DNA of 64,000 nt from the NCBI RefSeq assembly GCF_003958625.1, contig NZ_RSEL01000005.1, positions 124,001-188,000 of the forward strand. The letters run 5' to 3'. Both the position numbers and the translations under genes were made by a program. The notes under the pieces were generated by a model. The model saw only the letters and a list, made by a program, of their open reading frames with translations, made no database searches and was not told where the DNA came from. Shown one piece after another: positions 5,856 to 19,519 of this stretch. This stretch comes from Tsuneonella rigui (GTDB taxonomy: Bacteria > Pseudomonadota > Alphaproteobacteria > Sphingomonadales > Sphingomonadaceae). The first letter of the stretch is position 1. Each line of letters opens with the position of its first letter.

Positions 5856-8048
5856 GCGAAACGGACGCGGCTCGGGACGGCTGGCGATCCACCATGGATG
5901 CGCGCCCTGGCTGTCGGCTACGGCGGTGACGCGCTCGTCTGCGAGATAGAGTGCTAGCCCTCCGCGTTCCTCCAGGAACGAGCGGTCGGCCTTGAGCCAG
6001 CGCGGGCGGCAGCTGGCAGGCAGCCAACGGTCGGAGATCACGACATCCGCCCTCTCGCATGCCGCAGCAAGGGCCCGCTCCTCGATGCGCGACCGGTTGC
6101 GGCTCATGAGCAGATGCCAATCCCGCCCACCGCGCTGGAGCGTCAAGTTGCAGAAATCCGCGCTGCACTGCGCGCCGGGCCAGTCCTCGATCACCACCGG
6201 CTCTCCGCCTATCCCCGCGAGTTCCATCAAGTTGTCGCGCGCAAAATCGCTGCGTCCCTCCCGCAGCATCAAGAGCCGATCACCCTCCCCTGCCACGCCC
6301 ACATTGCGCCCATCTCCCGACACCAACACGTCTGGCGCAGGTGTGCTCACCAGCATTACCACCGCGCATACAATCGGTAACAGGCCGTACAGTCGCTGCC
6401 TGCCGTGCCACAGCGCAAGCCATAGTTCGCGGATCACGAACAGGGCGAAAGTCAGGGCGCTCATCTGCGGCATCAGCTTCACCGCGCCCGGCTGAGCGGC
6501 AGTAAAGTGCGCGATGTCGAGCATCAGATCGAGTGAAGCGCCGACTGCCGTCCACACCGGTTCGCCAACGCCGAGCACATCAAGCAGCAGGGCGAGACCT
6601 ATGAGCGGCATGGTAACGAACGTCACCAACGGGATCGCGACGACGTTGGCGATCGCGCCATAGAACCCGGCGCGGTGAAAATGGAACAACACGATGGGCA
6701 TCAGCGCCAGTTCGATGGCCACGCCGGTCAGCAAGAGCATCACCCCGCGACGGCCGATGCGGATGGCGAAGCTCTCCTCCCGCGGCGCGAGGAATGCTCG
6801 CACCGGTGCCGCCTCATGCAACGCGACGATCGCGATCACCGCGGCGAAGCTCATTTGGAAGCCGGGGCTGACGACGGCCTCGGGCCAGACGAGCATGACC
6901 AAAAACGCTGCCGCCGCGACCATGCGCAGCGACAGCGGCTCCCGTCCCAAAGCGAGTGCTCCGAGTACGAGCAGCGATCCGACGCAGCTGCGGACCGTCG
7001 GCACTTCGGCGCCGGTGAGAAGCGTATAGGCGATACCCGCGCCCGCCCCGCACGCCGCCGCGATCAACGGCAACCGCACCCGCAGGGTGAGCCATGGCCA
7101 CAGTGCGAGCAAACGAAGGGCAAGGAAGTACACGCACGCGATCACCGCGCTGACGTGCAGGCCGCTGATCGACAACAGGTGCGTCAATCCCGCGTCGCGC
7201 ATCGCGTCCTCATCCGCAGACGAAATTCCGCCCCGGTCTCCGCTCGCGAAGGCTGCGGCGATCGCGCCTGCTGAGCCACCAAGCTGTGCGCGAACATGCG
7301 CCGACAGCGCACGCTGGATGGCGGCAAGGCTGCCATCGGCCGCACCTGGTTCGATCACGGTCACCGGCCCGATTGCACCCCCGGTCGCCGACAGGCCCTG
7401 GAACCAGGCCGTGCGCGCAAAGTCGTAGGCACCGGGCACCATCGGCGGACCGGGCGGCATCAACCGTGCGCGCACCCTGACCAGCGAATCCTCGACCGCC
7501 TCTGCCGGCGCATTCTTCAACGGCACGTTTACCCGCACTTTGCGCGCAAACCCGGCTTCTGCATCGCGGTAAGCTATCGTCAATCGCACCCGGGCCTCGG
7601 CAGGTTGGTTCTCCCGCTCGAGCAACCGGCCTTCGATCCATGTCACCGCCGGGCGCTCGATTGGATCGGCGCCGACGATGGCCGAGCGCAGCCACACCCA
7701 CGCGAGTCCGACTGCGATCAGCAGCGCCAGGGCGATGATCGCTCGGCGGAGGTGCAAGTGCTCGTCGCGCCGCGCTCCCAGCCCCGCGCCGGCCAGCGCC
7801 AGCAGCAAGCAGGCGCCGATCGCCCCCAGCCACGCGATCGGCCCCGGCAGAGCGAACCATGCGACGACCCCGCCCGCCAAGGCGATCGCCAGCCACGGCG
7901 CGCGATCGAATCCCGCGCGGTCGAGCCACTCTTCGGCGGCATCCCAAAGGCTGGACAAGCGCCGCGCCTTGGGCCAAGGCGGCTGCTGCACTGCAGCATC
8001 GTCCGGATCGCCTCCGAATGGCACGATCGGCGCTACGCTGCTGGCCAT
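5826..8048 (-). CDS. comEC: ComEC/Rec2-family DNA uptake channel protein
   Basis: The product has 740 residues. Several N-terminal membrane segments flank a soluble DUF4131-type region (about 115-235). The competence core follows, with [16 protein letters not shown] and [17 protein letters not shown]. ComEC forms the inner-membrane channel that imports single-stranded DNA. The C-terminal part after the last helices is short and lacks the histidine-rich metallo-beta-lactamase motifs of full-length ComEC, so any nuclease function is doubtful. I prefer ATG at 8048; an in-frame TTG at 8084 would overlap gltX. The start is 29 bases from the divergent gltX start. No other competence genes are nearby. 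Confidence 0.87.
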
Positions 8049-8077
8049 GCAACCATTGGATAAGGAAGCGAAATCGG

Positions 8078-9511
8078 ATGGCAAGCGCTAGCGCAGAGGT
8101 GGTCACCCGCTTTGCGCCCTCGCCGACTGGATTTCTGCATATCGGCGGCGCGCGCACCGCGCTGTTCAATTGGCTTTATGCGCGGCATCATGGCGGCAAG
8201 GCCCTGCTGCGGATCGAGGATACCGACCGCAAGCGCAGCACCACCGAGGCGATCGGCGCAATCATCGACGGCCTGTCGTGGCTCGGGCTAGACTACGACG
8301 CGCCCCCGATTTTCCAGTCCGAACGCGCCCCGCGGCACGAGGAAGTGGCGTTTCAGCTGCTCGCTTCGGGCAACGCCTACAAGTGCTTCGCCACGCCCGA
8401 GGAGCTCGAAGCAATGCGCGAGGCGCAGCGCGCGGCCAAGCAGCCGCTGCGCTACGACGGCCGCTGGCGCGACCGCGATCCCTCCGAAGCCGCGCCGGGG
8501 GCACCGTTCGTCATCCGCCTGAAAACGCCCAACGAGGGCGAGACGGTCATCGAGGACAAGGTCCAGGGCCGCGTCACCGTTCGCAATGCCGAACTCGACG
8601 ACTATGTCCTGCTGCGGGCCGACGGCACGCCGACTTACATGCTGGCGGTGGTGGTCGACGACCACGACATGGGCGTCACCCACGTGATCCGCGGCGACGA
8701 CCACCTCAACAACGCCTTCCGTCAGCTCCCGATCTATCGCGCAATGGGCTGGCCGGAGCCGGTTTACGCGCACATCCCGCTGATCCACGGTGCCGATGGG
8801 GCGAAGCTGTCGAAGCGTCACGGCGCACTCGGCGCGGAGACCTACCGCGACGAGTTCGGCATCCTGCCCGAAGCGCTGTTCAACTACCTGCTGCGCTTGG
8901 GCTGGGGCCACGGCGACCGCGAGGAGATTACGCGAGACGAGGCGATCGAATTGTTCGAGCTGTCCGGCGTCGGCAAGAGCCCGAGCCGGTTCGACCTCAA
9001 GAAGCTGCACAATCTCAACGGCCACTACATTCGCGAAGCGGACGACGCGCGGCTTGCCGAACTGGTCGCGCCGAGGATTGGTCCCGATGCTGACCGCGCG
9101 CTCCTGACCGAGGCGATGCCGCAGTTGAAGCTTCGCGCGAAAGACCTCGATGAGCTTGCCGCGGGAGCGGCCTTCCTCTTCAAGCAGCGGCCGCTTTCGC
9201 TCGATGAGAAGGCGGCCGCGCTGCTCACGCCCGAGGCGCGAGACCTGCTCGCAAAAATTTCTGCCCGTTTGCAAACCCAAAGCGACTGGACCGTCCCCGC
9301 GCTCGAGGCCACGCTCAAGCCCTTCGCGGAGGAGCTCGGCCTGGGGCTCGGCAAGCTTGCGCAGCCGATGCGCGCGGCCTTGACCGGGACGACCACCTCG
9401 CCGGGCATATTCGATGTTCTAGCCCTCCTTGGCCGGGAGGAATCGCTCGCGCGGATCGATTGCGCAAGCGGCTCCGGCCGAGGCGGACAGCCAAGTTTAA
9501 GGAGACCGATC
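8078..9511 (+). CDS. gltX: Glutamate--tRNA ligase, reading on into gltA without a stop
   Basis: This is a class I aminoacyl-tRNA synthetase with the HIGH-type motif HIGG (residues 21-24), [11 protein letters not shown] and the KMSKS-type motif KLSKRHG. The family's C-terminal anticodon-binding region ends at [19 protein letters not shown]. It charges tRNA-Glu with glutamate. The ATG at 8078 has AAGGAAG nine bases upstream. There is no stop codon after this region: the frame continues through about 18 linker codons straight into the ATG of gltA at 9512 and ends at 10798, giving a potential 906-residue product. The end given here is the last base before gltA. In a neighbouring frame, ATT at 9459 leads to TAA at 9498-9500, so a small indel near 9455-9460 could have removed the original stop. 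Confidence 0.88.
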
Positions 9512-10798
9512 ATGGCGGACAAACAGGCGACGCTGACCTATAACGACAAGACGATCGACCTTCCGGTCCTGGAAGGCAGCGTCGGTCCCGAAGTGATCGA
9601 TATCCGCAAGCTCTACGGCCAGACCGGCGCGTTCACCTACGATCCGGGCTACAAGTCGACCGGCAGCTGTGAAAGCGCGTTGACCTATATCGACGGCGAC
9701 GAGGGCGTGCTGCTCCATCGCGGCTATCCGATCGGCCAGCTCGCCGAGCAGTCGAGCTTTATGGAAGTGAGCTACTTGCTGCTCAATGGCGAACTGCCGA
9801 CGCAGAAGGAGCTCGACGAGTTCACCCACACGATCACCCGCCACACGATGCTGCACGAGCAGCTCGCGACATTCTACCGCGGATTCCGCCGCGACGCGCA
9901 CCCGATGGCGATCATGTGCGGCGTGGTCGGCGCCCTGTCGGCGTTCTACCACGATAGCGCCGACATCTCGGACCCCGAGCAGCGCAAGATCGCGAGCCAC
10001 CGGCTGATCGCCAAGATGCCGACGATCGCGGCGATGGCGTACAAGTATTCGGTTGGGCAGCCGTTCCTCTATCCCGACAATTCGCTGTCCTACACCGGCA
10101 ACTTCCTGCGCATGACGTTCGGCGTGCCGGCTGAGCCTTACGAGGTGCTGCCGGCGGTCGAGAAGGCGATGGACCGGATCTTCATCCTCCATGCCGACCA
10201 CGAGCAGAACGCATCGACGTCGACCGTGCGCCTGGCCGGTTCGTCGGGCGCCAATCCGTTCGCGTGCATCGCAGCGGGCATCGCCTGCCTGTGGGGCCCG
10301 GCGCACGGCGGCGCGAACGAAGCGGCGCTCAACATGCTCCGCGAGATCGGCACGCCCGACAAGATCCCGCACTACATCGACCGCGCGAAGGACAAGAACG
10401 ATCCGTTCCGCCTGATGGGCTTCGGCCACCGGGTGTACAAGAACTACGACCCGCGTGCGACGGTGATGCAGCAAACCGTGCGCGAGGTGTTCGACGCGCT
10501 GAAGGTCAACGACCCGCTGTTCGAGACCGCGCTGCGGCTAGAGGAACTGGCGCTGAAGGACGAGTACTTCATCGAGAAGAAGCTGTTCCCCAACGTCGAT
10601 TTCTACTCGGGCGTGATCCTGTCGGCGATCGGCTTCCCGACCACCATGTTCACCGCGCTGTTCGCGCTTGCCCGTACGGTCGGTTGGGTGGCGCAGTGGA
10701 ACGAGATGATCTCCGACCCCGCGCAGGTGATCGGCCGTCCGCGCCAGCTCTACACTGGGCCGACGCAGCGCGATTACGTGCCGGTCGACAAGCGCTGA
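9512..10798 (+). CDS. gltA: Citrate synthase (type II)
   Basis: The product has 428 residues, normal for hexameric bacterial citrate synthase. It shows [52 protein letters not shown] and [15 protein letters not shown], which carry the active-site histidines. It condenses acetyl-CoA and oxaloacetate in the TCA cycle. ATG 9512 has a strong AAGGAGA (9499-9505) six bases upstream, so independent initiation is expected. Even so, the gene is in frame with gltX and no stop separates them. Confidence 0.96.
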
Positions 10799-10808
10799 GA
10801 CGCGCGTC

Positions 10809-11006
10809 GTGCGGTTGACCGCCAAGATCCTCGGCGCCGTGCTCGCATTCGCCGGGGTGTTCTTCGCCCTGCAGGGAGCGGGCGTCATCATGTGGCCGGC
10901 GGACAGCTTCATGCTCGCCGCGTCGGCATGGATCACTTACGGGCTGATTATCGCGGCGGTCGGCGTGCTGCTGTTCTGGTGGGGTAGCCGCCGGCCGCGC
11001 ATCTAG
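10809..11006 (+). CDS. Small two-helix membrane protein
   Basis: The product has 65 residues, with two hydrophobic helices (about 5-28 and 38-58) and a basic C-terminus, GSRRPRI. The GTG start lies ten bases after the gltA stop, suggesting co-transcription. I do not recognise a family. Its TAG overlaps the stop of the convergent kinase-like gene by four bases. Confidence 0.6.
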   Translation: MRLTAKILGAVLAFAGVFFALQGAGVIMWPADSFMLAASAWITYGLIIAAVGVLLFWWGSRRPRI

Positions 11007-12376
11007 GCCGCGGGAAGCTCCAGGATAAAGCGCGCGCCTTCCCCAGGCGCGCTCTCCACGCTGAGTTCGCCGCCCATGGCGCGGGCCAGCTTGCGCGAGA
11101 TGTAGAGGCCCAAGCCAGAGCCGCCGTCACCACTGCGGCCGAGACGCTCGAACTTCTCGAACACGCGCGCGGCTTGTTCGGGCGCCAAGCCTGGTCCTTG
11201 ATCGACAACCGCAACGCTCACTCGCTGACTACCGGTTCCGAGTTCGAGCAAGACCTGCGATCCTGCCGGTGAGTAGGCGATCGCATTGCCGACGAGGTTG
11301 AGCAGCACTTGGAGCACGCGGCGGAATTCGCCGATTGCGGGCACGCTTTCGTCCGCCCCGGGTGCCAGCAGAGTAATGTCTTTGGCCCGAGCGCGCACGC
11401 CAAGGATACCAACGGCCCGCCGCGCCACGTCGGCTAGGTCGATCCGGTCAGGCGCGGTGGCGAAATCGCCCGCTTCGACGACTTCCAGGTCCGACAAGTC
11501 CTCGATCAGCGACAGCAAGTGCTGCCCGGCCGCCGCGATGTCCGCCGCGTAGTTGCTGTATTCTTCAGCGAGCGGACCGGCGAGGCGTGACCGGATGGTT
11601 TCGGCATTCGCAATGATACGCGCAATCGGCTGCCGGAGAACCGGCGTCAGGTCGCGGCCAAAGGCAGTGGGTGAAGGTTGTTCTGCGGGCGGGCCGGGTA
11701 CAATCTCAGCCAGCGGTGCGTCAGCGACTAATAGCAACTCGAACCCCGCACTCCCCGGTTCCGGACGGCCGAGCGGAACCAGCGTGACGGTCCACGTGCG
11801 CTCCGAGCCCGGCACCTCGCAGCGGGCGCCGTCGAGCAGGCGCCAGTGCAACGGCTGGCGGTGCGTCAGATCCGGAAACGAAACGAAATCGCTCCACAGG
11901 CTGCCCTGCCCTTCGCGCATTGCCGTCACGACTTGCTCGAGATCGGCCGCGTGGCCCTCGACCGCGATTAAGCGTTGCGCGGGGTCGAGCCTGGCGGTGA
12001 GCTCGGCAAGTTCCCGGTCAATCGCCGTGCGAAGGGCCGCCGCGTCCTCGTCCGACAGCGGAATGTTTGGCACGCTGGACCAGGCGCCGACCGCGATCGA
12101 ACATCCGCCTTCGCCTTCGGCGTTGTCCGGCGCAACCTCGACCCAGGCGCGCACGGTCTCGTCGCCATCGAGCGCGGTGATCGTGCGTGCGAGCTTGAGG
12201 CCCAGCGTGCGCGCCTTGCGGACCACTTCGAGCAGTTGCGGGACAGCGACGGTGCCGGGAAGGTCGCCTCCACAGCGCCGCTGCAGTCCGGCCAGCGGCT
12301 CATCCGCCTCGATCAGCCGATCGGCGGCGTCGGTTCGAGCGCGCGCCAGCACGGCATCGTGCGCGGCCATGTTCAC
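11003..12376 (-). CDS. Histidine-kinase homologue lacking the phospho-acceptor histidine
   Basis: The product has 457 residues with no membrane segment. The N-terminal 240 residues are an unassigned sensory region. The H-box position that normally reads S-H-E-L-R-T-P reads T-P-V-L-R-Q-P here (244-250), so the histidine is Pro245 (codon CCG). The ATPase domain looks complete: N-box LLNLVGNAIAYSP with Asn360 and Asn364, G1 box DQGPGL (392-397), F-box VFEKFERLG and G2 GSGLGLYISRKL. It should therefore bind ATP but cannot autophosphorylate at the usual site. It is translationally coupled to the upstream gene (ATGA overlap) and is last in a minus-strand signalling cluster. It may act as an allosteric pseudokinase; the partner is unknown. 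Confidence 0.85.
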   Translation of the reverse strand: MNMAAHDAVLARARTDAADRLIEADEPLAGLQRRCGGDLPGTVAVPQLLEVVRKARTLGLKLARTITALDGDETVRAWVEVAPDNAEGEGGCSIAVGAWSSVPNIPLSDEDAAALRTAIDRELAELTARLDPAQRLIAVEGHAADLEQVVTAMREGQGSLWSDFVSFPDLTHRQPLHWRLLDGARCEVPGSERTWTVTLVPLGRPEPGSAGFELLLVADAPLAEIVPGPPAEQPSPTAFGRDLTPVLRQPIARIIANAETIRSRLAGPLAEEYSNYAADIAAAGQHLLSLIEDLSDLEVVEAGDFATAPDRIDLADVARRAVGILGVRARAKDITLLAPGADESVPAIGEFRRVLQVLLNLVGNAIAYSPAGSQVLLELGTGSQRVSVAVVDQGPGLAPEQAARVFEKFERLGRSGDGGSGLGLYISRKLARAMGGELSVESAPGEGARFILELPAA

Positions 12377-13335
12377 GCAGCCGACTTCCGCACCGACGAC
12401 GCAAGCAATTCCATCGCGCGGTCGGCGCGCAGTGCATCGAACCCCTCCGGCAGCGACACGTCGGGGTGAATGTAGAGGAATTGCTCCTCGATATCCTTCG
12501 GCTTGAGGCCCGCTGCACGCAGTGCCAGCGCCAGGCGGGCAAGCTGGCGGTCGTTGGTAGCGATCACCGCCAGTTCGCGCTCCTGCTGCGAGGCGGCCGC
12601 GAGTGCGCTGAGGAAGATGGCCGCGCCGGCATGGCTGATCGACAGCGCGGCGAGCACGCCAGCGCCCATGCCGTGTACCAGCCTGCCGAGTAGCCCCAGC
12701 CGGCCGACACTCTCGTCATAGTCCTCGCGCAGCCTGGCCGCCGCGGTCATGGCGGACTTGGCATCCTCTGCCGAGACTTGCTCGAGCCACGCGGTCAGTG
12801 CCTGCTGGAAGTGTTCGGCGGGGAGCTCCCCCAAGGGCAACTCCATCCGCCGCTGGCGCTGGGCGAAGCGAGCCTGCGCGGCAAGAGCCGCCATCGCGGT
12901 AGCCGCAGTCGGCGCATCGTCCGACGCGACCAATGCCTGCAACAACGGCGAGAGCACGGGATCGATTGCGTTGCGGGCCTCCAGCCGCGTGGTGAGCTGC
13001 CATTCGAGCGCCAATGCGTGGCAATGTGCCACCAGGCGCGCATTGGTGAGCAAGGCCTGGGTCAATCGTCCCTGCCAACGCTCGGCATATCCACGAGGAT
13101 CGAACTCTTCGGCCGCTTCCGCCTGCGCGGTGAGCATTTGCCGCGCGATGTCGCCGATCATGCCCCGCACGCGGCTGACGATCTCGTCGCTGAACAGCGA
13201 ATGGTCGTGGTTCGCGAGCAGATGTCCGAGCACCGGCCCTATCGTGCCAAGCACGACATCGCCGTGCGCGAGTTCGTCGCGCAGGATCGCCTCGACCGGC
13301 GCCTCGCTCGATTGGGTCATGACCGTATCGTCCAT
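12373..13335 (-). CDS. Hypothetical all-helical protein of the pseudokinase operon
   Basis: The product has 320 residues, rich in Ala, Leu, Glu and Arg. I recognise no catalytic motif, signal peptide or clear transmembrane segment, apart from an Ala/Gly-rich stretch GMGAGVLAALSISHAGAAIFLSALAAA (about 223-249). It looks like an alpha-solenoid or helical bundle. The ATG at 13335 is used; MTQSSEAP, five codons in, is an alternative start. Its stop overlaps the start of the kinase homologue, so the two are probably made in fixed ratio and may interact. Family unknown to me. Confidence 0.7.
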   Translation of the reverse strand: MDDTVMTQSSEAPVEAILRDELAHGDVVLGTIGPVLGHLLANHDHSLFSDEIVSRVRGMIGDIARQMLTAQAEAAEEFDPRGYAERWQGRLTQALLTNARLVAHCHALALEWQLTTRLEARNAIDPVLSPLLQALVASDDAPTAATAMAALAAQARFAQRQRRMELPLGELPAEHFQQALTAWLEQVSAEDAKSAMTAAARLREDYDESVGRLGLLGRLVHGMGAGVLAALSISHAGAAIFLSALAAASQQERELAVIATNDRQLARLALALRAAGLKPKDIEEQFLYIHPDVSLPEGFDALRADRAMELLASSVRKSAA

Positions 13336-13360
13336 CGCCTTCGGCCTTAGCAGCGCGTGG

Positions 13361-14533
13361 TTAAACCCGCGTTAGCTGCGATGCACGCGGCCAGAACAGG
13401 CGTAAGGCGAGGCCGAGCAGTCCCAATCCGGCCATGGTCAAGCCGAATGCGCCACTTGCTGAGGCAATGGTGAGCACAGCGAAGACCAGCGTGCGATCCG
13501 AAAACGGATGCAGCGGACGAGGCGCTTCTGCCTCAGAGCCAAGATGGATGACCGCGATCAACACCAAGGCGGCAAAGGCGACGGACCAGCCCTCGAACTC
13601 GCTCGGACTGGCGGCGATGGCGACGAGCGTCAGGTCGAGCAGTGCATGACGCGCCTCACCCAGCCACGAGCGCTCCTTTTCACCCGAGCCCGCGCGAGCG
13701 AGTTGAGCAAGCGCGGAACCGACCGCCATCAACGCGGCGGCTACGGTTAGGCCCGCCACTCCGGCGACTGTATGACCGAGATACCCGGCAACGGCACTGC
13801 CAACCGCTATTAGGGACCCGCCTGCAACGAAGCCTAATGCGCTGCTTGCGGCATTGCGCATCCGGTCGACCACGCCCCGCGCTATTCGGTGTGCGAGAGC
13901 CGATGCAGGCCGATCGAGCGCCGGCGCCGGGACATGCCGCAGATACCATGCCGCTTGGTACTGCTCTGCCTTCGGTTGGCTCCTCACTAGCGCCCAGCGG
14001 CCGTCGTCGAGCCACTTGTCAGGCACATTGACCGCGCCCGCCCCTCGCTGCAGCGCCACGCGGAGAAGGCCCCCGATGGGATCGGCATCCGGCGGCAGCA
14101 CCGTGAGCGCCTCGACCGCATCGCCGCGCGTCGAGAGAACCCCCGCCCACGCGCGTTCGCGGTCGATCCGTTCGAACCCTTGCTCGACCGCGCCTTCCGC
14201 CGGTAGCACGGCCACCCCTGCCCGCGCACCGAAAGCCTGCGAAAGCCACTCGCGATCCGGCAGCACGCCCGGCGCGAATGCCACCAGCGTGTCGCCTGCG
14301 TTGACCAGACCCGACAGCGCGCGGTGATGGGTTACCGCATGAAACGCCAGCCCGCGCCGCTCGGCATCGCGCTGCAGTGCCGCTAAGTCGGGCCCCGGCG
14401 CCTCGGCCAGGCAGATGATCCGCTCGCACGCGAGCGCGATAGCCGCCTGCAACTGGTGCCAGGCAAGCGGATGCCCGGCGAGACGCACCTCGCCCGCGCC
14501 GTCGTTCATCATCGAGATCAGCGCGATGCGCAC
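13361..14533 (-). CDS. Membrane protein with nucleotidyltransferase-like N-terminus, function unknown
   Basis: The product has 390 residues and a GTG start. The first ~200 residues are soluble and begin MRIALISMMNDGAGEVRLAGHPLAWHQ, with features vaguely like a GT-A/NTP-transferase fold. The last ~180 hold about six hydrophobic segments in three pairs. This recalls bifunctional nucleotidyltransferase/CDP-alcohol phosphotransferases, but I do not see the DG-AR-G-D-D catalytic signature in the membrane part, so no enzymatic function is assigned. It lies 25 bases upstream of the helical unknown, on the same strand as the pseudokinase. Confidence 0.65.
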   Translation of the reverse strand: MRIALISMMNDGAGEVRLAGHPLAWHQLQAAIALACERIICLAEAPGPDLAALQRDAERRGLAFHAVTHHRALSGLVNAGDTLVAFAPGVLPDREWLSQAFGARAGVAVLPAEGAVEQGFERIDRERAWAGVLSTRGDAVEALTVLPPDADPIGGLLRVALQRGAGAVNVPDKWLDDGRWALVRSQPKAEQYQAAWYLRHVPAPALDRPASALAHRIARGVVDRMRNAASSALGFVAGGSLIAVGSAVAGYLGHTVAGVAGLTVAAALMAVGSALAQLARAGSGEKERSWLGEARHALLDLTLVAIAASPSEFEGWSVAFAALVLIAVIHLGSEAEAPRPLHPFSDRTLVFAVLTIASASGAFGLTMAGLGLLGLALRLFWPRASQLTRV

Positions 14534-14602
14534 GCTTCGCGGGCCCTCCCGGTCACGGGCGGTACCTAGGGAACCGGAAGTAGCTTGGCTAGGGCGGCGC
14601 GC

Positions 14603-14905
14603 TCAGCCGGCGATGAAGCGGTCGCGGTACCGTTCGATCCGACGCACGACGGTCGGTTCGCCCGGCGCGGCGCCGATCGCCTCGTCCGCCAGGTCGATCA
14701 GTTCGCTGGCGTGGAAGCTGGCAGCGAGGCCCTTCAGTCGCTGCGCAGCGATCGCCCAATTGCCGTCGCAGCGTGCGCGCTTGAGCAGGTCGAGATGGCG
14801 CTCCAGACTTTCGCAGAATGCCGCGCGCAACTCCGCGAACAGCTCAGGATCCTGACCCGCAGCGGCCGTAAGCGTCGCATCGAATGCACCCTGTTCGTAT
14901 GCCAT
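14603..14905 (-). CDS. Hpt-like domain protein with glutamine at the phospho-histidine position
   Basis: The product has 100 residues, the size of a single histidine-phosphotransfer domain. The diagnostic helix reads AAQRLKGLAASFHASELIDLADEAI (residues 53-77), which aligns with A-H-x-L-K-G-S of Hpt domains except that the histidine is Gln55. A downstream His65 is not in the usual place. It is thus a degenerate Hpt protein, possibly a docking or inhibitor module. GAGGAAG precedes the ATG. It is first in the minus-strand run leading to the pseudokinase and is divergent from the TipN-like gene. Confidence 0.75.
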   Translation of the reverse strand: MAYEQGAFDATLTAAAGQDPELFAELRAAFCESLERHLDLLKRARCDGNWAIAAQRLKGLAASFHASELIDLADEAIGAAPGEPTVVRRIERYRDRFIAG

Positions 14906-14920
14906 CGCCGCTTCCTCTAG

Positions 14921-14951
14921 CAGTGTGATGATTAAGACACTGTTTAACCAT
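14921..14951. promoter_or_regulatory. Candidate CtrA-type site between Hpt-like and TipN-like genes
   Basis: The 72-base divergent gap contains TTAACCAT at 14944-14951, which matches the alphaproteobacterial CtrA half-site. It is preceded by another TTAA at 14932-14935 (spacing eight, one more than the classical seven). An inverted repeat CAGTGT/ACACTG occupies 14921-14926 and 14937-14942. The site ends 26 bases before the TipN-like ATG. Binding is inferred, not shown. Confidence 0.4.
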
Positions 14952-14977
14952 GTTCCGATGGTGTAATTCCCAAGGCC

Positions 14978-17608
14978 ATGAGCGGGGGTTCACACATCCG
15001 GGCAATCGGCCCCGGCAGCGGCGCACAAGCGCCTGACGATGGCGCGCAGCAGGGCGACGAGCCGCTGACGCTGGACGAAAGCTGGGCCGAGGAGCCGGTT
15101 TACGAGGAGGCGTGGGAAGAGCCTGCCCCCCGCCGCTGGCGTGCGCTGATGGCTCCGGTCGTCGCCATGCTGGCGGTGGCCGGGTGGACCGCCTTCTTTG
15201 CCTGGGCCCACGTGGCCGAACTGCGTGGCGGCATTTCGCCCCAGGCTGGATCGCAACTGCTGATCGACTGGTCGGTACCGACATTGCTGGTAATCGGGAT
15301 CTGGCTGCTCGTCATGCGGACGAGCCGTCGTGAGGCTTCCCGGTTCAGCGATGCCGCGTCGTCGCTTCGAGGCGAAAGCGCAGCGCTCGAGACTCGCCTG
15401 TCGGTCGTCAACCGCGAGCTGAGCCTGGCGCGCGAGTTCCTCGCCTCGCAGACCCGCGAACTGGAAACTCTGGGCCGAGTGGCGACGCAGCGCCTGTCCG
15501 AGCATGCCGACCGCCTGCAAGCTCTGGTGCAGAACAATGGGGCCGAGGTCGAAGCGATCGCGGGCGTCAGCCGCATCGCGATGGAGAACATGGACCGGCT
15601 GCGGGACGATCTCCCGGTCATCGCCAACGCCGCGCGCGATGTGTCGAACCAGATCGGCGGCGCGGGCAACACCGCACACTCGCATCTCGCCGAGCTCATC
15701 GCGGGCTTCAATCGGCTTAACGAGTTCGGCCAGGCGAGCGAGCGACAGGTCGGCGCGCTGCGTGCCAAAGTCGATGCCGCGATCGCCGGGTTCGAAGCGC
15801 AGGCCGCGCAACTCGACGAGATCACCGGCGCCCGCTTCACCGCCTTGCGCGAGAAGAGCGATGCGTTCCGCGCCGAGCTCGACGGGCGCGAGGTGGATGC
15901 CCTGGCCGCCATGCGCCACCGCGCGGATCGTTTGCGGGAGGAGATCACGTCCGCTGCGGCAACGCTCGAAGCCCACGAAGAGGAGCTGCTCAAGTCGCTC
16001 CAGGCGCGCATTGCTGCGGTGCGCGACGGCGCGGTCACAGTCGGGGACGGCCTCGCCGGGACCGAGCGCGAAGCGATGGCTGCGTGGAGCAAGCGGCTCG
16101 AAGTGATGAAGGCCGATCTCGAAGCCGCCATCCGGCAGGTCGAAGCGATCGACGCCGCCGCGAAGAGCGGGGCGGAAGAGCGGCTGCGCATCATCCGTGA
16201 AGAAGCTACCGCAGTCGACGGCAAACTCACGCAATCGCATGCGATGTTCGTCGGCGAGGTCGAGAAGCGCCGCGCTGAAGCAGCCGCGCTCGCCATGGCG
16301 CATGCCGAGCAAATCGACGCGCAGTTGGCGGCGCTCGATAGCTCTATAGCCGATCGCCGGGCAGCGCATGCAGCGCAATCGGTCGTGTTGGCTGAGCACG
16401 GCGAAACCGTCGCCGCGCTGCTTGTGTCATTGGGCGCCGAGATGGAACGCGCCGCTGGTCAGGGACGCGATGCCGAGACCGCGCTGGCCGCAGCCATCGA
16501 CGCGCTCGCTACGCGGCTGTCGGCAAGCCGCGAGGCATTGAGCGATACCGATCGCGCGGTGGCCGAGCTGACTGACGCCAGCGTTCGCCTACTCGAACTG
16601 ATCCGGGCCAGCGCCGAGCACACCCGCGCCGACCTGCCTGCTGCGCTGGGCAACGCCGAGGAACGCTTGTCCGAACTGGCCGAGCGCGGTGAGAAGCTGA
16701 GCCTCATGATCGGCGCCGCCGGGGACCGCAGCCGCGAGCTGTCCGACTACGTTATCGCGGCCAGCCGCGACAGTGCATCCGCGATGGGCGAGCTCAAATC
16801 CTTCCAGGGCCAGATCGCCGCCGCGCACGATGCGAACGGCGCGCGCGTGAGCGAGCTGCGCGCGCAACTCGATGCCTTGGTGAACGACAGCCGCACTGCG
16901 GCCGAAACCGCGCAAGGTCCGCTTCGGGAGGCGATCGCCCTGCTCGAGACTTCCGCGCGTGACGCGATCGCTTCGCTTCAGACCGACAGCGCGAGCCAGA
17001 TCGCGGCGATCGCCGGACAGATCGGGAGCGAGGCTGCGGGTGCGATCGACCGGGCGCTACAAGTCCACGTCGGCGCCGCGATCGCAGAACTCGACCAGAC
17101 CGCCGCGCAGGCCGCTGGTGCGGGCCGCGAGGCCGCCATGCAGCTCCGCGATCAGCTCGCGCGGGTGAACGAGCTCGCGGCAAATCTCGAGAGCCGCGTG
17201 GCGCATGCGCGCGAGCGCGCGGAAGAACAGATCGACACCGACTTCTCCCGCCGGGTCGCGCTGATCACCGAGAGCCTCAATTCGAACGCGATCGATATCG
17301 CCAAGGCGCTCTCAAGCGACGTCACCGATACTGCGTGGGCCAGCTACCTTCGCGGCGATCGGGGCATCTTCACCCGCCGCGCCGTCCGCCTGATCGACAA
17401 CACCGAAGCGCGCGACATCGCCGAGCTGTTCGACAGCGACAGCGAGTTCCGCGAGCACGTCAGCCGCTACATCCACGATTTCGAGGCGATGCTGCGGACG
17501 ATGCTGTCGACGCGTGACGGTCACACCATCGGCGTGACCCTGCTGAGCAGCGACATGGGCAAGCTCTACGTCGCGCTGGCACAGGCGATCGAGCGCCTGC
17601 GCGACTGA
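14978..17608 (+). CDS. TipN-like polarity factor: two TM helices plus long coiled coil
   Basis: The product has 876 residues. An acidic N-terminus (1-55) is followed by two membrane helices (about 57-79 and 98-114). About 650 residues of Ala/Glu/Arg-rich coiled coil come next, then a conserved-looking C-terminal domain with WASYLRGDRGIFTRRAVRLI and RYIHDFEAMLRTMLSTRDG (about 785-876). Topology and length closely match Caulobacter TipN (about 890 residues, two N-terminal TM, coiled coil), which marks the new pole and guides division and flagellum placement. The call rests on architecture and memory of the family. It is transcribed away from the degenerate phosphorelay genes with a CtrA-like box between. 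A generic structural coiled-coil protein is the alternative. Confidence 0.65.
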   Translation: MSGGSHIRAIGPGSGAQAPDDGAQQGDEPLTLDESWAEEPVYEEAWEEPAPRRWRALMAPVVAMLAVAGWTAFFAWAHVAELRGGISPQAGSQLLIDWSVPTLLVIGIWLLVMRTSRREASRFSDAASSLRGESAALETRLSVVNRELSLAREFLASQTRELETLGRVATQRLSEHADRLQALVQNNGAEVEAIAGVSRIAMENMDRLRDDLPVIANAARDVSNQIGGAGNTAHSHLAELIAGFNRLNEFGQASERQVGALRAKVDAAIAGFEAQAAQLDEITGARFTALREKSDAFRAELDGREVDALAAMRHRADRLREEITSAAATLEAHEEELLKSLQARIAAVRDGAVTVGDGLAGTEREAMAAWSKRLEVMKADLEAAIRQVEAIDAAAKSGAEERLRIIREEATAVDGKLTQSHAMFVGEVEKRRAEAAALAMAHAEQIDAQLAALDSSIADRRAAHAAQSVVLAEHGETVAALLVSLGAEMERAAGQGRDAETALAAAIDALATRLSASREALSDTDRAVAELTDASVRLLELIRASAEHTRADLPAALGNAEERLSELAERGEKLSLMIGAAGDRSRELSDYVIAASRDSASAMGELKSFQGQIAAAHDANGARVSELRAQLDALVNDSRTAAETAQGPLREAIALLETSARDAIASLQTDSASQIAAIAGQIGSEAAGAIDRALQVHVGAAIAELDQTAAQAAGAGREAAMQLRDQLARVNELAANLESRVAHARERAEEQIDTDFSRRVALITESLNSNAIDIAKALSSDVTDTAWASYLRGDRGIFTRRAVRLIDNTEARDIAELFDSDSEFREHVSRYIHDFEAMLRTMLSTRDGHTIGVTLLSSDMGKLYVALAQAIERLRD

Positions 17609-17610
17609 CG

Positions 17611-17871
17611 TCAGGCCAGGTCCATCAGCATATCCGGCGTGAGCCAACCGTAGACGTAGTTCGCGACATAGAGGCCGGTCAGTGCCAGCGACAGCACGGT
17701 CGCGCGCAACATCAGCTTTCCGGGCTGGAAATTACCGGGTGCGCTGTCCGCTTGCCCCGGCACCTTCTCGAGCCCTAACTCCTCGTGCGTCTTGATCCCA
17801 AACGGGAGCAGCACAAACGCGCTGGCGACCCAGAACAGGAAGTAGATCGCGAGGATCGAAGTCCACCTCAT
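17611..17871 (-). CDS. DUF1467 family small membrane protein
   Basis: The product has 86 residues. Two hydrophobic helices (about 4-22 and 52-72) flank LLPFGIKTHEE, a motif I associate with DUF1467. The start ATG at 17871 overlaps the rnj stop by four bases (ATGA). In-frame codons further upstream would run deep into rnj and are not used. It is the last gene of the long nuo-birA-coaX-rnj run and ends two bases from the convergent TipN-like gene. Function unknown. Confidence 0.8.
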   Translation of the reverse strand: MRWTSILAIYFLFWVASAFVLLPFGIKTHEELGLEKVPGQADSAPGNFQPGKLMLRATVLSLALTGLYVANYVYGWLTPDMLMDLA

Positions 17872-19519
17872 CGCGCGGCTTCCTTCGGCAGCATCACCCG
17901 CACCTGCGGCCGCTTGCCGGACCACCGCGTGGCGGCGCGGCGGGCGGCAAGGCGGGCGGCCTCGATTACGCTTTCGCGATCGCGGGCCGCGGCGCCTTTG
18001 AGCTTGCCGATCGCGTCGGCGATGTCGCCTTGTGCTTCGGTGCAGAACGCCTCGTAATCCTCGTCTAGCGGGAGGCCGATGCCCTCGACTTGCGCCCTAC
18101 CCTGCGGACCGAGCGCGACGATCACCAGCCCTTCGCGCGATATCCGCCGGCGCATGACCATCGCCTCGCCGTCGGCGGGTGAGATGATGTCGCCATCGAG
18201 CAGCAGCCGTCCGGCGCGCACTTCGGCGATCTTGCCCGGCTTGCCCGGGGCGATGCGGACCATGTCGCCGTTCTTCTGTACCACCGCGTGCGGAATGCCG
18301 CACTCGAGGCCGAGCCGCGCCTGCTCGGTCATGTGACGCATCTCACCGTGGACCGGCACGAGGATCTGCGGTCGGAGCCAGGTATAGAGCGCCTCGAGCT
18401 CCGGCCGGCCCGGATGGCCCGACACGTGGATCGCGCTCTGGCGGTCGGTCACCATCACGATGCCGCGTTCGGCCAGCAGGTTCTGCACGCGCCCGACCGC
18501 GATCTCGTTGCCGGGGATCTGCCGGCTGGAGAACAGCACGACATCGCCCGCGCTCAGTTCGATAGGGTGCTGCTTTTCGGCAATTCGCGCCAGCGCCGCG
18601 CGCGGTTCGCCTTGCCCGCCGGTGGCGACGATTAGCACTTCGCCTCGCGGCAGGCTCATGGCGGTATCGAAATCGACGACTTCCGGAAATTCGGCGAGGT
18701 AGCCGTTGTCCTGGCTGACCTCGATCATGCGATCGAGCGAGCGCCCTGCGACGCACAATCGCCGCCCAGTCGCCTGCGCCACTGCGCCCAGCGTGTGCAG
18801 CCGCGCGACGTTACTGGCGAAGGTTGTGACCAGCACGCGCCGGCCCTCCCAGCGCGCTACCTCGTCGTGGAGCGCGCGGTACACTGCGCCTTCGGAACCG
18901 CTCTCGGCGGGATTGAACACGTTGGTCGAATCGCAGACCATGGCGAGTACGCCCTCGTCCCCGATCTCGCACAGCTCTTCCTCGGTGGTCGGGTCGCCGA
19001 TGATCGGCTCCTCGTCGAGCTTCCAGTCGCCGGTGTGGAACACGCGTCCGTACGGCGTGTCGATCAGCAGCGCGTGCCCCTCGGCGATCGAGTGCGCGAG
19101 CGGAACATACGATATGTCGAACGGCCCGAGCGCGAAGCTGTCGCTGCCTTCGATCACGTTGAGCTCGATCTGGTCGACCAGGCCGGCCTCGGCGAGCTTG
19201 CGGCGCACCAGGTCAGCCGTGAACGGCGTCGCATAGAGCGGCACGCCGAGGTCCTGCGCGAAGTATGGCACCGCGCCGATATGGTCCTCGTGCGCATGAG
19301 TCAGCACCACGCCGACGAGGTAACTGGTGCGCTCCTCGATGAATTCGAGATCGGCGAACACGAGGTCGACGCCCGGATATTCGTTGCTGCCGAAGGTCAT
19401 CCCCAGGTCGACCATTAGCCACTTGCCCTGGCAGCCGTAGAGATTGACGTTCATGCCGATCTCGCCCGACCCGCCAAGGGCGAGGAACAGCAGTTCGTCC
19501 TCAGGGGTGAAATCTTTCT

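Follow-up and report, generated by a model that had tools for sequence, protein, structure and literature searches.

A candidate pseudo-phosphorelay module divergent from a TipN-like coiled-coil gene in Sphingomonadaceae

Introduction

According to the portions of the literature cited here, the closest described counterpart of an inactive histidine kinase working in cell polarity is DivL, in which a histidine kinase core has lost its acceptor His, keeps its ATP boxes and functions without kinase activity at the cell pole, setting a precedent for the use of such a core as a receiver sensor (PMC4211667). Among polar scaffolds, TipN of Caulobacter comprises 882 amino acids (PMC13170164), and the Agrobacterium growth pole ring protein (GPR) has been called similar to it (PMC8546619). 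As for Sphingomonadales, Brilli et al. (2010) described the CckA-ChpT-CtrA pathway as kept and the DivJ-PleC-DivK system as degenerate or lost (PMC2877005). The present analysis concerns a five-gene locus in a 64,000-nucleotide stretch of the Tsuneonella rigui genome (contig NZ_RSEL01000005.1, positions 124,001 to 188,000), hereafter the window, in which a kinase homolog and an Hpt-like (histidine phosphotransfer) protein both lack the phospho-acceptor His and lie beside a gene for a TipN-like coiled-coil protein. In the open-access literature searched, nothing was found on DUF2336 or on TipN in Sphingomonadales, and this gene set was not named among the papers listed.

Results

The open reading frames of the window place the five genes where a sequence-only reading had put them. 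Four of them occupy the reverse strand and encode, in order of rising coordinates, a pseudo-histidine kinase (11003-12376, 457 amino acids from a GTG start), a helical protein that is probably a diverged DUF2336 protein (12373-13335, 320 amino acids), a membrane protein (13361-14533, 390 amino acids), and a pseudo-Hpt protein (14603-14905, 100 amino acids). They diverge from the coiled-coil gene on the forward strand (14978-17608, 876 amino acids) across a gap of 72 base pairs (14906-14977), and the stop of the DUF2336-like gene overlaps the start of the kinase gene by 4 bases. The sequence-only reading had taken this arrangement for a non-catalytic signaling module, and the evidence below fits that proposal: both acceptors are lost, the ATP site looks intact, the linkage is conserved, and the products are under purifying selection, a combination that argues for a non-catalytic module rather than for decay. 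We put at roughly even the chance that the locus is a conserved "pseudo-phosphorelay" of the window's family, Sphingomonadaceae, that signals by binding.

Conservation of gene order

A relative of the coiled-coil protein was present in 57 of the 60 genomes searched, its own included. The neighborhoods of the 56 other matches were fetched and then searched with profiles of the five proteins. The four-gene order (kinase, DUF2336-like protein, membrane protein, Hpt), with the coiled-coil gene diverging from it, was recovered in 22 of 35 other genomes of the family; counting the window, 23 of 36 have it, and the expectation that the order would be conserved is thus borne out within this family. 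Outside it, 11 of 22 fetched loci have the Hpt gene beside the coiled-coil gene, and no other member of the set was found there. In other Sphingomonadales families, a DUF2336 gene and a histidine kinase gene are paired elsewhere in the genome, in the same order as in the window; 20 such DUF2336 loci were fetched, of which 19 show the kinase (L077 does not) and 18 could be scored (the kinase of L075 is cut).

This distribution bears on the strongest rival explanation, according to which only a neighborhood is conserved, and the kinase/DUF2336 pair and the Hpt act apart from the coiled-coil protein as a non-catalytic regulator of CckA-ChpT-CtrA or of stress pathways. That the pair stands alone in other families is in its favor; eight genomes there have a flagellin-domain match, resembling FlgL on inspection by eye, no more than about 6 kb from the pair, although six of these eight matches fall under the Pfam cut-off. 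The Hpt-only neighborhoods outside the family point the same way, as does one genome (G030) with the coiled-coil gene at the locus and without the rest of the set. On the other hand, the full order is kept in 23 family genomes, and the pairing of an Hpt gene with a nearby coiled-coil gene turns up again in five families outside Sphingomonadales. Separate function is accordingly regarded as a serious alternative, though clearly the less probable one.

Sequence features of the pseudokinase

The kinase homolog matches the Pfam families HATPase_c (3.4e-26) and HisKA (2.6e-7), preceded by an N-terminal region of about 235 amino acids without a Pfam match. In family alignments, Pro245 occupies the acceptor-His column (TPVLRQP versus SHELRTP), and the acidic residue beside the His and the phosphatase Thr are likewise replaced, P-V-x-x-Q standing for H-E-x-x-T; the hallmark of active HisKA domains, a His with its adjacent acid in the H-box, therefore reads P245-V246. 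Both ATP-site boxes, N and G1 (D392-G394-G396), are present in the window kinase, and the site looks intact from its sequence. The earlier description of a kinase homolog with Pro245 at the His site and a sound ATP-binding domain is thereby upheld by both the alignment column and the boxes. The window's genome contains 29 HATPase matches, the next most similar of which scores 162 bits, as against 316 for the pseudokinase itself.

Such retention leaves room for a second rival explanation, in which the kinase has kept its catalytic activity: the ATP domain would phosphorylate another residue, or another protein in trans, while the Hpt docks the target and carries no phosphate. The N box Asn is kept in all 31 scored family kinases and the G1 box, D-x-G-x-G, in 30 of 31, as this explanation would have it. 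The exception, G029 (L021), has a damaged G1 box, however, and the window kinase has other residues in place of the His, its neighboring acid and the phosphatase Thr alike, while lineages differ in what stands at the His site. Lasting catalysis therefore appears improbable.

Sequence features of the pseudo-Hpt protein

The Hpt-like protein matches Pfam Hpt at 0.0077, under the Pfam cut-off, and the acceptor column of the family alignments agrees with the sequence-only reading in placing Gln55 (AAQRLKG versus AHKLKG) where an Hpt would have its His. Kinship is nevertheless detectable at the sequence level, since a phmmer search with the window protein finds His-bearing positional relatives at best at 5.6e-7. 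A profile built from His-bearing and His-less Hpt relatives together gives as its best PDB match the histidine phosphotransferase 2ooc (7.5e-11, profile positions 5-95), which we take to be ShpA of Caulobacter. The His-less proteins have a signature of their own: R-C-D-x-N-W occurs in 11 of 12 aligned rows, its R, D and W in all 12, and it was not seen among the 13 His-bearing rows of the Hpt alignment.

Loss of the acceptor His and selection

Only kinases adjoining the DUF2336-like gene were scored, which drops G035, a genome whose kinase lies beside the coiled-coil gene on a short contig and has a gap at the His column. On this basis, family kinases could be scored in 31 genomes, the window included; the His is present in three (G017, G022 and G034, the last without the adjacent acid) and lost in 28, where the site holds Pro in 23 and N, D, K, R or T once each. 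Family Hpts were scored in 27 genomes, with the His present in two (G015 and G017) and lost in 25 (Q in 12, L in 6, M in 3, W in 2, E and A in 1 each). Both proteins were scored in 27 genomes: 25 lack both His residues, one (G017) has both, and one (G015) lacks the kinase His alone. Other Sphingomonadales families keep the His in all 18 scorable kinases and in all 11 Hpts. A maximum-likelihood tree of 49 kinases requires two changes of the His label, a number as low as which was reached in none of 500 shuffles; the tree contains several long-branch rows and its bootstrap had not settled.

Relatives with the His at both sites, which the sequence-only reading would have taken as a sign of local decay, do therefore exist; outside the family they are unlinked, and inside it G017 is the only case. 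Since those outside are unlinked, they represent the ancestral state rather than a pointer to local decay, which is ruled out by the family-wide loss of the His and by low ratios of nonsynonymous to synonymous substitution (dN/dS). Considering that the proteins of other families are unlinked and His-bearing, the sequences indicate that separate loci came together in this family and lost their acceptors, with the products under purifying selection.

The dN/dS ratios were obtained by the Nei-Gojobori method against 7 of 10 genomes of the same genus, by manual division of the printed dN by the printed dS, and are rough because dS is high. Of the five products, the Hpt is under the strongest constraint, at 0.07-0.17. 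The kinase has ratios of 0.12-0.20 (six values, dS being saturated in the seventh) and the DUF2336-like protein 0.14-0.20; those of the coiled-coil protein lie at 0.15-0.27 and those of the membrane protein at 0.18-0.34. In 22 of the 23 Pro-bearing kinases, mean identity is highest in the dimerization and His phosphotransfer (DHp) domain (0.74), followed by the catalytic and ATP-binding (CA) domain (0.66) and the N-terminus (0.47); L021 was left out of this comparison, so that the Pro is invariant by choice. A slow decay across the clade, leaving relics of a former phosphorelay, would account for the His loss in both proteins, for the loss of the catalytic motif of the membrane protein in 30 of the 32 family genomes with a match, and for incomplete sets with occasional stops or a split frame, but is very unlikely in view of the low dN/dS, lowest of all in the Hpt, the shared signature of the His-less Hpts, and the high conservation of DHp and CA.

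Whether loss of the His accompanied loss of the flagellum was also considered. A flagellin-family gene is present in 10 of the 28 His-less family genomes and absent from 18, including all 11 genus genomes searched. Loss of the flagellum as the sole cause is excluded by those 10 genomes, though a partial link may exist, and the pseudokinase, kept both with and without a flagellin-family gene, is not only a flagellum relic.

The DUF2336-like protein and the membrane protein

For the helical protein, called an unknown in the sequence-only reading, a known family can be proposed. No Pfam family, PF10098 (DUF2336) included, matches the window protein itself, and its single-sequence structure model was useless, with a predicted local distance difference test score (pLDDT) of 40. 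The assignment as a probable diverged DUF2336 protein is made because 4 of 17 members of the family alignment match PF10098 (best 3.3e-63), the kinase partner is the same, and a profile comparison is weakly positive.

The membrane protein, earlier read as a Rossmann-membrane protein, can now be placed more closely, as a relative of the nucleotidyltransferase/CDP-alcohol phosphatidyltransferase fusions of other families (hhalign probability 97.3%, E 2.1e-11); PF01066 is matched by 2 of 15 alignment members. The CDP-alcohol phosphatidyltransferase catalytic motif D-x2-D-G-x2-A-R is absent from the window protein. Counted in fetched loci only, it is kept in 2 (G013 and G027) of the 32 family genomes with a membrane-protein match and in 5 of 10 such genomes of other families. 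Some relatives (at L058, L088, L090 and L094) lie near a gene that resembles, by eye, myo-inositol-1-phosphate synthase, a hint that the ancestral context of the protein was the synthesis of inositol lipids.

The coiled-coil protein

The coiled-coil protein shows the architecture of TipN, two N-terminal hydrophobic segments, read by eye, and a long coiled coil, followed by a C-terminal domain (17258-17605, forward strand) that is predicted to be helical and has invariant columns in alignments. It belongs to a widespread alphaproteobacterial family, its profile being found in at least 107 of 240 genomes of the class, three of them from the window's family; the true number may be higher, since no more than three candidates were scored in each genome. 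Among Pfam and NCBIfam, no family was found for the C-terminal domain, only scattered weak matches involving no more than 2 of 16 members. Its single-sequence model reached a pLDDT of 72 in the best of five and 51 in the next, with no PDB fold match at E <= 0.001.

A Caulobacter-like family was chosen for comparison by one member's best DivJ score in the class sample (443 bits, under the model's cut-off). The C-terminal domain is present in 30 of its 40 genomes, in 21 of the 30 within frames of 830-960 amino acids, and an N-terminal hydrophobic stretch was read by eye in the coiled-coil protein at seven of its loci. The label of TipN architecture thus holds for the segments and the coiled coil, while the putative kinship with TipN rests on this architecture and on the C-terminal domain common to the Caulobacter-like family. 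Across the class, 8 of 20 chosen loci, from five families outside Sphingomonadales (L130-L135, L137 and L145), have an Hpt gene with its His preserved close to the coiled-coil gene, which suggests an old Hpt-scaffold neighborhood.

The intergenic gap and flanking genes

The divergent gap is 69-72 base pairs long in 21 of the 25 family gaps read, the window included. The consensus of the CtrA box is TTAA-N7-TTAA. A pair of TTAA half-sites does occur in the window gap, as the description of a CtrA-like box implied, but the form is TTAA-N8-TTAA, one base longer than the consensus; across the 25 gaps an N8 box occurs in eight and an N7 box in one, so that the motif is kept only loosely. A scan of 10780-17950 with the sigma-70 consensus gave no site. 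Next to the locus, gltX (glutamyl-tRNA synthetase) and gltA (citrate synthase) form one uninterrupted frame (7859-10798, forward strand), while they are separate frames in relatives where the motif check found both in the fetched locus; the single frame is either a true fusion or the result of a missing stop or an error in the sequence.

Discussion

Under the binding module favored here, the kinase homolog would dimerize and bind ATP through its CA domain, and its conserved DHp surface would engage a receiver-domain or adaptor partner, neither transferring phosphate to it nor removing phosphate from it, by analogy with DivL. The pseudo-Hpt could act as a competitor or adaptor by occupying a receiver or kinase surface. 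The DUF2336-like protein could be a partner in the assembly and the inactive membrane protein its membrane anchor, and the whole would be placed at a cell pole or division site by the coiled-coil protein. The tie to polarity, which we infer together with the mechanism, is the least certain step.

Several observations weigh against this interpretation. A profile of the His-less Hpts alone found no Hpt in the PDB, and the residue replacing the Hpt His varies, so that no single new residue has been selected there. As evidence for the DUF2336 assignment, the hhalign comparison of the family's helical protein with DUF2336 proteins of other families is weak by itself (probability 30%, E 5.5e-4). The family is not uniform: G015 combines a His-less kinase with a His-bearing Hpt, and G017, G022 and G034 keep the kinase His, all three with a flagellin-family gene. 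In 13 of 36 family genomes the full order was not recovered, the set being incomplete, split, on broken contigs, or without a coiled-coil match (G032, 67% complete). Two of these, G013 and G023, retain the genes for the membrane and coiled-coil proteins, and the other three were not seen at the locus; no match to the DUF2336-like profile was found anywhere in either genome, and the Hpt search was empty for G013 and produced just a weak match elsewhere in G023 (4.2e-5), a pattern that may reflect joint loss or ancestral absence. One stop codon was found in each of three family matches (the DUF2336 match of G025 and the Hpt matches of G028 and G015), perhaps at the match end, and the G017 membrane protein is split over two frames. 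Outside the family, no Hpt lay near the coiled-coil gene in the seven fetched loci of the Caulobacter-like family.

If a binding module is indeed what has been conserved, a whole relay would be convertible to a protein-interaction circuit, DivL being the described case of a histidine kinase core as a pure sensor. A bolder version, advanced only tentatively, is that an entire phosphorelay has become a binding-only machine, with a pseudokinase and a pseudo-Hpt gathered, together with an inactive enzyme of lipid synthesis, beside a polar landmark gene, and has taken over part of the role of DivJ-PleC-DivK. In Sphingomonadales, where that system is described, in the part of the source cited, as degenerate or lost (PMC2877005), the module represents a concrete candidate input to CckA-CtrA and polarity. 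The His-bearing, unlinked relatives in sister families offer a natural before-and-after comparison.

Comparison with known systems

Each element of the locus is of a known kind, namely a pseudo-histidine kinase, an Hpt and a TipN-like scaffold, and the joint inactivation of kinase and Hpt beside the scaffold is unnamed among the papers listed from the open-access literature searched. Plant pseudo-Hpt proteins of the AHP6 type have the Hpt fold without the His and could block a phosphorelay; the likeness is by description only, and here a pseudokinase lies beside the pseudo-Hpt in a bacterial locus. The Hpt of PDB 2ooc is matched by the mixed profile, while the window protein differs from it in the absence of the acceptor His. 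The DUF2336/kinase pairs of other families share genes and order with the window, but lie away from the coiled-coil gene, and their kinases have an intact SHE-L-R/K-TP motif and bear PAS domains (matches in five of five scanned). An assignment of the ancestral kinase to PleC, DivJ or PdhS was not established: for four kinases, NCBIfam ranks other kinases above DivJ, and none of the matches listed attains its cut-off. The look for DivK covered the 30 of 44 receiver matches that had loci, and its motif filters were crude.

The window coiled-coil protein resembles TipN and GPR in its N-terminal hydrophobic segments and long coiled coil, and its size is similar (876 versus 882 amino acids, the TipN figure as given in the cited part of PMC13170164). 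Unlike in the window, the gene stands without an adjoining Hpt gene in the Caulobacter-like loci.

The earlier remark that the kinase is comparable to DivL and clearly different from it proved apt. As in DivL, the acceptor His is replaced and the ATP boxes are kept; DivL has Tyr and PAS domains, whereas the window kinase has Pro, and three PDB kinases other than DivL match it with higher scores than DivL does. Identity with DivL is ruled out, both by this Pro and by a separate DivL relative in the same genome (L178), whose best PDB match is DivL itself (4q20, 3.3e-29) and which has Tyr in the acceptor column. With DivL encoded by a gene of its own, the window pseudokinase is a second, independent pseudo-histidine kinase.

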